Positions 26,478-33,308 of a stretch of DNA of 33,308 bases are shown piece after piece. The stretch covers positions 1 through 33,308 of the forward strand of contig JANXVW010000347.1 in the NCBI GenBank assembly GCA_025351455.1. The letters are read 5' to 3'. The stretch comes from Betaproteobacteria bacterium (GTDB taxonomy: Bacteria > Pseudomonadota > Gammaproteobacteria > Burkholderiales > JACQAP01). Position numbers and translations under genes: made by a program. Numbering within the stretch: the first letter of the stretch is position 1; each line of letters opens with the position of its first letter. The notes under the pieces are model-generated. The model saw nothing but the letters and a program-made list of their open reading frames with translations, did no database searches and was not told the origin of the DNA.

Positions 26478-28118
26478 ATGCCAGAAATTGGAAGCCTTTC
26501 CGACAAACAGGTGCGGCATTTCCGGCAGATTCTGTTGTGGCCTCTGCGACTGATGCCGATCCGGGCGGGGAGCCAGATTCAGAGGCACTGGGAACTGCTC
26601 GGGCAGTTCGGGGAAGACAATCTCTGGCAAGAGGTCGTCGACGAGTTTACCGGCGATCCAGGGCAGTTCCAGGAGCGCCATTACAACGAGTTCGTTACTT
26701 TCCTGCCCTACGTTCAGCGCTTCCTTTACGGCGAAAGCAGGGGAGCACGATCCGGCGACGAACGCAGCGCCTCGCTGATGCGCGTGTTTCGCCGTAGCGA
26801 TGTCGCCAGCGTACGCTTGACCGCCAGCCGCGAAGACAAGCCGCTCACCTTCCGTGTTGCGCACGTCGATCTGTATTTCTTTTTCGATATCGACGTCGTA
26901 CTGCTGAACGTGGAGATATACGCCGATGATCTGCCGCTCCATCAGGTACAGAATACGCTTTATCGTTTCGGCTGCGCCTATCCCGCCGGCTGGGACGAGC
27001 ACGGCCAGGGCCTGCACTGCATGCACCGCGTCGAGTGGCTGGGCGCCGATGGCAGTGTGCTGGCGGTGTCGGACTACGAGAAGCGGGAGAAATATTTGTC
27101 GTTCGTGTGCCGGCATCGGGCGCCGCACATCGCCGCACACTGGGAATTTTTGCTCAAACCCCTGGTGCTCGATCAATCCGAAGACAAAGGCGTGATCCGT
27201 TACCGGCAAATCGAGTACTACCGGCTGCCGGTGATGGGTTATCTGGCGCTGGACAACCCGCGCGCGCTGACTCGCACCGATTTCGTCCGCCTTGGGCTGA
27301 TCACATCGCCCGGAGCCGACGAATCGCTGCCTTATTCCGATCGCTACGTCGCGGGCTTCGAGGAAAGCTATTGTTACGACCGTTACTGGAGCGACGCATC
27401 CGACGGGCCGAACACGCGTTTCCTGGCCTGCGGCCATGCGCTGATTGTGGTCGGCGATGCCGGATCGAAACTGTTCGTCAGCCGCGAGACCGGCGTGCTG
27501 GCGCAATTCCGCCACCAGCATTTTCTGCTGTTCCTGATCGCACATTTTCACAAGGCCGCATTGCTGATGTTCTCCGACCGGCTGGTGGACGCACTCAACA
27601 AGCTCGATATCCACGATGCGGAGTCGGTAAAGAATTTCAAGCGCGTTATTCGCGAGAACTTCGAAATCTTCCTGCGCTTTACCCACCGCTACTGGTTCCA
27701 TGAGGTTTCCGATCACGCCCAGTCCAAGGCGTTGTTCCGCCTGTGCAGCCGGCACCTGGGCAGCGACGCGTTGTACCAGGAGGTCAAGCAGGAGATCAGC
27801 GACATGAGCCACTATCTCGATAGCGACAGCCTTCGCCGGCAGGCGAACACCGTGATCAGACTGACGGTGGTGACGACCTTCGGGCTGATCGGCACGGTCA
27901 CCACCGGCTTCCTTGGCATGAATCTGATCGCCGCCGCCGACCGGCCGCCTCTGGAAAAGCTGCTCTACTTCCTGATCTGCCTGATTCCCATTACCTGGCT
28001 GACCTTCTACAGCGTAGTCAAGTCGAAGCGACTATCGGAGTTCCTCGACGCGCTGTCCGACGAGCGCCTGCCGTTGAAGGCAAAAGGCGCCGCGCTGCTC
28101 AACGTGTGGCGCAAATAG
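26478..28118 (+). CDS. CorA-like (2-TM-GxN) family membrane protein, divergent
   Basis: 546 aa; long soluble N-terminus, helical C-terminus, then LTVVTTFGLIGTVTTGFLGMNLI (GMN motif at the end of TM1) and LLYFLICLIPITWLTFYSVVKSKRL (TM2). Confidence 0.72.
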   Translation: MPEIGSLSDKQVRHFRQILLWPLRLMPIRAGSQIQRHWELLGQFGEDNLWQEVVDEFTGDPGQFQERHYNEFVTFLPYVQRFLYGESRGARSGDERSASLMRVFRRSDVASVRLTASREDKPLTFRVAHVDLYFFFDIDVVLLNVEIYADDLPLHQVQNTLYRFGCAYPAGWDEHGQGLHCMHRVEWLGADGSVLAVSDYEKREKYLSFVCRHRAPHIAAHWEFLLKPLVLDQSEDKGVIRYRQIEYYRLPVMGYLALDNPRALTRTDFVRLGLITSPGADESLPYSDRYVAGFEESYCYDRYWSDASDGPNTRFLACGHALIVVGDAGSKLFVSRETGVLAQFRHQHFLLFLIAHFHKAALLMFSDRLVDALNKLDIHDAESVKNFKRVIRENFEIFLRFTHRYWFHEVSDHAQSKALFRLCSRHLGSDALYQEVKQEISDMSHYLDSDSLRRQANTVIRLTVVTTFGLIGTVTTGFLGMNLIAAADRPPLEKLLYFLICLIPITWLTFYSVVKSKRLSEFLDALSDERLPLKAKGAALLNVWRK

Positions 28119-31025: not shown

Positions 31026-32555
31026 ATGCCTAACACCCCCCAGACAGAAATTGCCGTTAATCGCAATCAATTGCCGAAGTGCCTCACCGGCATCAAAGGC
31101 TTTGACGAAATTACGGAAGGCGGGCTTCCGAAAAACAGAGTCACGTTGATCTGCGGAAGCACCGGCACTGGAAAAACCCTTTTGGGGATTGATTTTTTAA
31201 TCAATGGTGCGATCAATTACGATGAGCCAGGGGTCTTCATGTCCTTTGAAGACACCGACGTCGAACTTTACAAAGACGTGGCTTCTCTCAACCTGGATTT
31301 AGAGGGGCTGGTCTTACAAAAAAAGATTCTGATCGACTATGTTCTGTTGGAGCGCCGGGATATTCAGGAGAAAGGCGAATTTAATCTTGAAGGATTATTC
31401 ATTCGCCTGGAAGTTGCAATTGATTCCATCGGCGCCAGACGCGTTGTTCTGGATTCCATTGAATCGCTTTTTGCGGGCGTCAGCGATGCCGGCATTCTTC
31501 GCCTGGAAGTAAAAAGACTTTTCCGGTGGTTTAAGGAAAAACAAGTCACCGCAGTCATTACGGGAGAGTTGAGGCAAGGCTCTTATACCCGTCATGGCCT
31601 GGAAGAATACATTTCAGATTGCATCATCCTCCTGGACAACAGGGTCCGGGAGCAAATTTCCACCCGCAGAATCCGTGTCATTAAATACCGGGGATCAAAT
31701 CATGGAACAAACGAATACCCCTTCGTCATCGACAAAGATGGACTTTCAGTCATTCCCATCACTTCTGCAGGGCTCGATCAACCCGGCACGCGCGAGAGAG
31801 TGTCGACAGGAATCCCATCACTGGATAAATTGTTCCAGGGTGGAGGTTATACCCGAGGCAGCACGATACTGGCTTCAGGTACCGCGGGCACCGGGAAAAC
31901 AAGCCTCGCGGCTGCATTCGCAGTGCAAAGTTGTAAACGCGGGGAGCGGTGTCTTTTCCTGTCCTATGAAGAGTCATCGGGGCAACTCGTTCAAAACATG
32001 AGTTCCATCGGTTTTCAGTTGGAACCAATGGTTAAAAAAGGATTGCTGAAGATTGTGTCTACCCGGCCTTCCTTTTTTGGTTTGGAAATGCATTTGCTCG
32101 ATTTATACAAGATCATTGCTGATTTCAAACCCAAAGCGGTGGTCATTGATCCCCTGACCAGTCTCATTGGGCAGGGAAACCAACTTGAAATTCAATCCAT
32201 GCTGACTCGCATGATTGATGCATTGAAATCCAGGGGCATCACCGGCTTTTTTACCAGTCTTGTTTCTTCAAACCAACAAAACGACACGAGCGGCGAAATC
32301 GGCGTCTCGTCGTTGATTGACACCTGGATCGTCGTCAGGGAATTGGAAGAAAACGAGGGTAGGCGGCGCATTCGTGGTACTTACATTGTCAAGTCTCGTG
32401 GCATGGGCCACTCCAGTGACGTCCACAAACTGATATTGAGTGATGATGGATTGCACTTAGAACCAATGGACATTCATGCCACTGCCGGCGCCGATCAGAA
32501 AAGGAAAATTGGTAAAAGTCCTTCTGTGAGCCGAAAATTAAGCAAAAAAAGCTGA
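31026..32555 (+). CDS. KaiC-like double-domain RecA-superfamily ATPase (circadian clock protein KaiC family)
   Basis: 509 aa; two Walker A motifs GSTGTGKT and GTAGTGKT; KaiC-type acidic pairs SFEDT and SYEES; C-terminal RGTYIVKSRGMGHSSDVHKLIL; RBS-like AGGAAGG upstream of the ATG. Confidence 0.93.
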   Translation: MPNTPQTEIAVNRNQLPKCLTGIKGFDEITEGGLPKNRVTLICGSTGTGKTLLGIDFLINGAINYDEPGVFMSFEDTDVELYKDVASLNLDLEGLVLQKKILIDYVLLERRDIQEKGEFNLEGLFIRLEVAIDSIGARRVVLDSIESLFAGVSDAGILRLEVKRLFRWFKEKQVTAVITGELRQGSYTRHGLEEYISDCIILLDNRVREQISTRRIRVIKYRGSNHGTNEYPFVIDKDGLSVIPITSAGLDQPGTRERVSTGIPSLDKLFQGGGYTRGSTILASGTAGTGKTSLAAAFAVQSCKRGERCLFLSYEESSGQLVQNMSSIGFQLEPMVKKGLLKIVSTRPSFFGLEMHLLDLYKIIADFKPKAVVIDPLTSLIGQGNQLEIQSMLTRMIDALKSRGITGFFTSLVSSNQQNDTSGEIGVSSLIDTWIVVRELEENEGRRRIRGTYIVKSRGMGHSSDVHKLILSDDGLHLEPMDIHATAGADQKRKIGKSPSVSRKLSKKS

Positions 32556-32570
32556 CGGTATCTGATGAAG

Positions 32571-32584
32571 GTCAGTCGACTGAC
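32571..32584. promoter_or_regulatory. 14-bp perfect palindrome between the kaiC-like and cheB-like genes
   Basis: GTCAGTCGACTGAC, ending 6 nt before the cheB-like ATG at 32591. Confidence 0.6.
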
Positions 32585-32590
32585 ATACTC

Positions 32591-33163
32591 ATGGATTCAA
32601 TTCATCCTACCTTCATAGTCGGCGTCGGCGGCTCAGCCGGAGCGCTTAACGCCTATAAGGCGCTCTTGGGCGCCCTGCCGTCCAATACAGGAATGGCCTT
32701 TGTCATTGTTTCCCATATTCACCCCACCGCGCATAGTTACCTATCTCAAATTCTGTCCCGCCAAACGAAAATGCCCGTCATGCTGGCTTCCAACGCGATG
32801 CCGATCTCGGCGAATCACGTCTACTTGACTCCTGCGGACTCCGATCTGACAGTTGAGGGCAATGCCTTCAAGGTCGTCTCTCCGCGCACCAGCAGGGGCA
32901 ATCAGATAGATATATTTTTTGTTTCTTTAGCGGCGGCGATCGGGGCGCGGGCGATCGGCATTATTTTCTCCGGGTATCAGGGCGACGGTACTGAAGGCTG
33001 CAAGCAGATCAAGGCAAAGGGAGGAATAACCTTTGCCCAGGACGAGTCTGCCGAGATAGACAGCATGCCTCGCCGCGCGGAGGCGGAAGGCTGTATTGAT
33101 TTTGTCCTGCCACCCGAAAAAATTGCAGATGAACTGCAAAGATTGGCTCTTCTCCGTAAGTAG
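32591..33163 (+). CDS. Stand-alone CheB-type protein-glutamate methylesterase domain
   Basis: 190 aa; nucleophile region GVGGSAGALNAYKALLGALP, His region VIVSHIHP, Asp region GIIFSGYQGDGTEG, C-terminal AEIDSMPRRAEAEGCIDFVLPPEKIADEL. No receiver domain; closest in style to CheB domains of CheB/CheR fusion proteins. Confidence 0.9.
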   Translation: MDSIHPTFIVGVGGSAGALNAYKALLGALPSNTGMAFVIVSHIHPTAHSYLSQILSRQTKMPVMLASNAMPISANHVYLTPADSDLTVEGNAFKVVSPRTSRGNQIDIFFVSLAAAIGARAIGIIFSGYQGDGTEGCKQIKAKGGITFAQDESAEIDSMPRRAEAEGCIDFVLPPEKIADELQRLALLRK

Positions 33164-33239
33164 ACCTGTGGCACCGCGACGTCTATAGATCCTTCGCAAT
33201 GTCGGGCTCTACCCGCACGTCCTCGGTCATGTGTGCCGC

Positions 33240-33308
33240 TTAATTTCGTTTTTTCGCTTGAACCCGGAAGACGCGGGCCGCGACGCCGTCGGGTGTCAAC
33301 GTCCTAGG
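33240..33308 (-). CDS. Possible C-terminus of a protein running off the right edge
   Basis: Minus-strand frame ...PRTLTPDGVAARVFRVQAKKRN* open from the window edge to a stop at 33240; only 22 codons visible. Confidence 0.25.
   Translation of the reverse strand, partial: PRTLTPDGVAARVFRVQAKKRN

Follow-up and report, generated by a model that had tools for sequence, protein, structure and literature searches.

The window analysed here is a stretch of 33,308 nucleotides (positions 1-33308 of contig C51) from a betaproteobacterial draft genome (3.94 Mb, 353 contigs, 98.8% complete). Near its right end, two genes follow each other on the forward strand: kaiC (31026..32555), which encodes a KaiC2-type double-domain ATPase of 509 residues (CI and CII), and cheB (32591..33163), which encodes a stand-alone CheB catalytic domain of 190 residues. 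An initial sequence-only reading had described this arrangement, and both open reading frames are indeed located at these positions, separated by an intergenic gap of 35 nt on the same strand (32556..32590). It is the spacing of the genes that suggests their co-transcription; no promoter-like site was predicted within the gap. Genome-wide searches placed neither CheR nor KaiB on this contig, in agreement with the earlier statement that neither is present in the window. Elsewhere in the window (26478-28118), a 546-residue protein shows only a sub-threshold match to the CorA transporter family (19.4 bits, cut-off 27).

Another contig of the same assembly, C258, overlaps positions 32989-33308 of the window (L156, 1-317) at 90.6% identity and thus presents a second version of the right end, derived either from a sibling strain within the metagenome-assembled genome (MAG) or from a second copy. 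Purifying selection on cheB is apparent from this sibling copy: in the cheB codons that the two contigs share, synonymous differences outnumber non-synonymous ones six to one. Beyond the overlap, C258 carries metabolic genes in convergent orientation (UxaA-like and of the enolase superfamily, as named by reading their translations), and this is probably what lies to the right of the window end. Hence a third gene of the module is not expected in that direction. The continuation shows none of the CheR, KaiB or kinase genes that the sequence-only reading had proposed to look for right of position 33308.

KaiC is the core of the best-understood protein clock and has few known partners, namely KaiA, KaiB and kinases of the SasA/CikA type. 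The window KaiC matches the Pfam KaiC/ATPase family in two stretches (357 bits) and the NCBIfam KaiC model PRK09302 with 627 bits against a cut-off of 408, and falls under the equivalog cut-off of the cyanobacterial circadian KaiC (TIGR02655; 307 against 546 bits). Its best-scoring relative among solved structures is KaiC-RS of Rhodobacter (Cereibacter) sphaeroides (8db3, 522 bits), which belongs to a KaiB-KaiC2 hourglass in which KaiB binds CI (8DB3, 8DBA, 8FWI, 8FWJ; PMC10076222). Like KaiC-RS, the window protein combines two KaiC domains with Walker A motifs (that of CI, the GSTGTGKT-L region at residues about 44-51, was read from the translation at 31161..31184 on the forward strand), two acidic pairs (E75/D76 and E315/E316) and two serine phosphosites, S428/S429, which align with S413/S414 of KaiC-RS. 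Two adjacent phospho-acceptor serines in CII define KaiC2 (PMC10076222, PMC5520375), and the serine pair is present in 18 of the 18 proteins of the CheB-linked KaiC clade delineated below. The surrounding segment (residues 418-439; 32277..32342, forward strand) is nearly identical in CheB-linked KaiCs across phyla and variable in KaiC2. Within it, E424 is invariant, and position 423, five residues before the first serine, is occupied in all 18 CheB-linked KaiCs by a glycine that replaces the usual threonine; the equivalent residue of cyanobacterial KaiC, T426, is important for dephosphorylation (PMC5520375).

Two further features set the window KaiC and its clade apart from KaiC-RS, which possesses a coiled coil and KaiB. 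First, the C-terminal coiled coil of KaiC2 is missing: only 31 residues extend beyond residue 478, and the tails throughout the CheB-linked clade comprise 26-56 residues compared with 84-112 in close relatives. Given that the coiled coil of KaiC-RS joins two hexamers and that its delta-coil form is a hexamer (PMC10076222), the coil-less window KaiC is expected to be hexameric. Second, the B-loop, the site at which KaiC binds KaiB and SasA (PMC12084410, PMC6378743), is altered. In its equivalent (residues 112-120, DIQEKGEFN; 31359..31385, forward strand), delimited by the B-loop range of the literature and not by individually numbered residues, the window KaiC carries E112D, Y119F and D120N relative to KaiB-linked KaiCs. 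The clearest of these changes is at position 120, which is aspartate in 57 of 58 other KaiCs and asparagine in all 18 CheB-linked ones. Three of 24 group-specific substitutions fall in the B-loop (P about 0.008, with positions treated as independent, as in all our substitution P values), and a denser cluster of seven, in a region that like all those other than the B-loop was picked after inspection, occupies residues 464-481 beside the missing coil.

As to the second protein, Pfam detects CheB_methylest alone (169 bits, residues 10-182), without a REC domain, which bears out its original description as a bare catalytic domain. Against the two NCBIfam models of chemotaxis CheB it scores 111 and 93 bits, below the respective cut-offs of 342 and 293. 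The AlphaFold model (pLDDT 94) superimposes on Thermotoga maritima CheB (3sft) at TM 0.86, and comparison with the chemotaxis CheBs 1CHD, 3SFT and 1A2O yields TM values of 0.82-0.86 at 24-26% identity (0.82-0.87 for solved CheB domains overall), so that the window protein shares the fold and the Ser/His/Asp triad of chemotaxis CheB and differs from it in lacking a receiver domain. The triad had been given as S15/H41/D131; S15 is correct, and the other two residues, each off by one, are H42 and D132. In the clade of 26 CheB domains to which the window protein belongs, S15 and D132 are invariant and H42 is retained in 24 members. Retention of the triad across such a divergent clade suggests selection on catalysis in most of its members.

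Several members of the CheB clade are fused to other domains, in no case (0 of 26) to CheR. In L024 the fusion partner is a histidine kinase (HisKA-HATPase), and the two members without H42 (Q in L021, N in L028) are fusions with CRP-type proteins: that of L028 contains complete cNMP-binding and HTH_Crp domains, and that of L021 contains the cNMP-binding domain and ends at a contig edge. Since both CheBs without the histidine are CRP-fused, and CheR was not found in the genome of either L021 or L028, the CheB domain in these fusions appears to work non-catalytically. These CheB-CRP proteins (L021, 8615-9499; L028, 9935-11287) are candidate KaiC-gated transcription factors. Yet another member (L032, 408-1823) carries a C-terminal extension of ~280 residues that matches no Pfam family; at first impression it resembled a receiver domain, which Pfam does not support.

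The conservation of the pair was assessed in a CheB-seeded scan of one genome per species for 84,980 species, which relied on short peptide patterns and therefore may miss members. The 80 loci returned show a sharp break: 25 (L013-L037) encode CheB domains with 62-71% identity to that of the window, followed by CheB domains at no more than 47%, mostly within long fused frames; a partial match of 59% (L048) lies too near a contig end to be scored. Among these 25 close relatives, to which the adjacency count applies, 24 are directly preceded by a KaiC open reading frame in the same orientation, at a distance of 3-107 nt; in one (L023), kaiC is interrupted by a stop codon or frameshift. Thus, the co-conservation that the sequence-only reading proposed to score is pronounced and spans hosts of seven phyla, named as Chloroflexota, Acidobacteriota, Pseudomonadota, Bacteroidota, Bdellovibrionota, Nitrospirota and Melainabacteria, although many carriers are MAGs, several from a single study, so that individual host names may be wrong. 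The KaiC-bearing carriers from named strains (L016, L036, L017, L022 and L029) are all Bacteroidota. The sole close CheB relative without a trace of KaiC (L034, 2155-2721) has as neighbors a response regulator and a large protein that contains CheB.

An all-against-all comparison of the neighbors revealed that, besides CheB, only the KaiC family is common to nearly all loci, and Pfam scans of 20 neighbor genes yielded no common theme. At some loci (L016, L018, L026, L029 and L031), the pair is flanked by genes for response regulators or kinases, as is the solitary CheB of L034. A larger operon can be rejected, given that the neighbors share no further family and signaling genes occur only at some loci.

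Sampling of individual phyla underscores how sparse the combination is. In a sample of 399 Pseudomonadota genomes, a close CheB relative was detected in no other genome, and KaiCs with 44-55% identity were present in nine genomes, none with CheB. Among 396 Bacteroidota genomes, 41 encode a KaiC at E below 1e-100, and only that of the seed L017 is of the CheB-linked type. Similarly, in 396 Acidobacteriota genomes the close CheB occurs only in the seed L021, the next matches being CheB-CheR fusions at 49-55%. Across the Pseudomonadota and Bacteroidota samples, the 58 other KaiC loci include, within flanks of about 1.5 kb, CheB in none and KaiB in 48.

In phylogenetic analysis, the 18 CheB-linked KaiCs that are long enough for inclusion form one clade (SH-aLRT 100) with a long stem. 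This clade joins the KaiB-linked KaiCs of the KaiC2 type, and a test of a nested against a sister position gave p-AU 0.39. Likewise, the 26 CheBs (from the window, the 24 KaiC-linked loci and the solitary L034) form one clade with support of 98. The KaiC and CheB distances are correlated (r 0.69, 0 of 5000 permutations), modestly so once near copies are removed (r 0.40, 101 of 5000 permutations). Furthermore, the GC content of the window genes (48% for kaiC, 54% for cheB) deviates from the 60.7% of positions 1-30600, and comparable differences between the module and its surroundings on the same contig are seen at L014 (46 versus 64%), L015 (47 versus 60%) and L028 (58 versus 69%). From this deviant composition, together with the scattered hosts, we infer that the pair moves horizontally and was acquired recently in the genome of the window. 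Phage or plasmid cargo was rejected as an explanation: no relative was detected among IMG/VR viral contigs and no copy with at least 60% identity among plasmids.

The gene content of the carriers speaks to the role of the pair. KaiB was not detected in 16 of 24 carrier genomes, was found in the other eight and in the genome of the window, and in no case lies within the KaiC-CheB pair. Chemoreceptor (MCP) domains score above the cut-off in only seven of the 24 carriers, and none was detected in the 98.8% complete genome of the window, a further difference from the setting of chemotaxis CheB. The completeness of the carrier genomes is unstated, so that each single absence is weak by itself; collectively, these patterns of KaiB and chemoreceptors make it unlikely that the pair serves classical chemotaxis.

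Besides the CheB-type pair, the genome of the window has a separate operon of the usual KaiB type: on contig C85 (L158, 3-3680), a fragment of KaiC is accompanied by two genes for KaiB and one for a PAS histidine kinase. On contig C10 (L157, 4821-8512), a third, highly divergent double-domain KaiC precedes a receiver-bearing histidine kinase, which also matches the PocR sensory domain weakly, and a response regulator. Operons of the C85 kind, in which KaiC is combined with KaiB and a PAS histidine kinase, are found in Pseudomonadota and Bacteroidota (L161, L163, L164 and L169) and share with the pair described here a leading KaiC gene and a small downstream partner on the same strand. They differ in that the partner is KaiB, followed by the PAS protein, without CheB, and the CheB-linked KaiCs form a clade separate from theirs. 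Judging by the part of PMC5847659 that cites them, archaeal KaiC-like signaling hubs embody a similar idea, namely that of linking a KaiC ATPase with components of two-component systems; these hubs are REC fusions of KaiC-like proteins, and a KaiC-CheB pairing was not found in that part of the source.

Taken together, these observations lead us to propose, with a probability that we put at roughly one half, that kaiC and cheB constitute a two-gene, horizontally moving signaling module in which a KaiC2-type ATPase and autokinase has a CheB domain as its partner. Because in gene order CheB sits where KaiB sits in the KaiB operons, it can be read as the replacement of KaiB, a domain that would take the functional place of KaiB beside a KaiC2-derived ATPase and act as both partner and output. 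Under this proposal, the KaiC hexamer would sense nucleotide or phosphorylation state through ATP hydrolysis by CI and CII and the predicted phosphorylation of S428/S429, possibly with a timing role, and the binding of CheB to KaiC would depend on that state. The output would usually be that of a competent esterase or deamidase acting on a protein other than a chemoreceptor, whereas in the fused CheBs the state of KaiC could be relayed to the attached histidine kinase or CRP-type regulator. The simplest reading is thus that CheB is the dedicated partner and output of KaiC, usually an enzymatic one. At L035, a natural in-frame read-through joins KaiC and CheB; its AlphaFold prediction with 24 rows (pLDDT 59, pTM 0.38) is uninformative with respect to the interface. 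Counting against the proposal are the solitary CheB of L034, the occurrence of KaiB in eight carriers and in the genome of the window, and the modest size of the distance correlation once near copies are removed.

A different possibility, which we regard as unlikely, is that CheB provides an additional methylesterase or deamidase in trans for host sensors of the CheB-CheR-PAS type, with KaiC merely gating its activity or expression. CheR was detected in 21 of 24 carriers, in many of them in long frames, the genome of the window encodes one CheB-CheR-PAS protein (contig C277), and by raw counts proteins of this type adjoin the pair or the solitary CheB at L016, L029 and L034 and lie upstream at L020; the intact triad in 24 of 26 CheBs is also consistent with such a role. 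Moreover, the nearest CheB sequences encountered outside the clade, at 49-55% in Acidobacteriota, belong to these fusions. However, the latter are single long CheR-fused proteins that already have a CheB of their own, whereas the KaiC-linked CheB is separate. Furthermore, CheR was undetected in three carriers, and the changes at the partner sites of KaiC would be left unexplained.

It appears rather improbable that CheB is in general a non-catalytic adaptor that relays the state of KaiC, its triad being largely an ancestral remnant. The fusions to a histidine kinase and to CRP-type proteins, and the loss of the catalytic histidine in both of the latter, would fit an adaptor, but the near-uniform preservation of the triad in so divergent a clade speaks for selection on catalysis in most members.

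The sequence-only reading had suggested that KaiC might be coupled to reversible carboxyl methylation or deamidation, which is conceivable. The specific version in which CheB demethylates or deamidates the KaiC ring itself, and so adds another layer of covalent control to that by serine phosphorylation, is a long shot in our estimation; candidate target sites would be the 418-439 segment with E424 or the rewritten face at 464-481.

Still more doubtful is the notion that the two genes are functionally unlinked passengers that travel jointly on a mobile segment. The foreign GC content in several hosts and the scattered distribution are compatible with joint travel, but plasmids and viral contigs show no carrier element, and the flanking genes are not common to the loci, which means that kaiC and cheB alone stay joined over divergence to 57-68% identity. 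Finally, although the window stops 145 nt past the CheB stop codon and the assembly is a fragmented MAG, the idea that cheB is a remnant of some larger CheB fusion, or an assembly error close to the edge of the contig, can be practically dismissed, given the 26-member clade with conserved starts and ends, the carriers from named strains and the overlapping C258 copy with the same stop; the CheB/CheR fragment raised in the sequence-only reading is contradicted by this intact clade, whose fusion partners are a histidine kinase and CRP-type proteins.

As far as the open-licence literature goes (subscription papers were outside the search), the KaiC-CheB pair is undescribed. What is new is the pairing of CheB with a KaiC2-related protein, the KaiC2 and CheB domains themselves being already known. 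If KaiB has been exchanged for an enzyme domain, the module would illustrate how new outputs can be connected to a clock ATPase, and the CheB domain would gain a role beyond chemoreceptor adaptation. Moreover, Flavipsychrobacter, Aequorivita and Mucilaginibacter offer small systems in culture for addressing the question whether KaiC2 proteins are timers or general energy-state switches.
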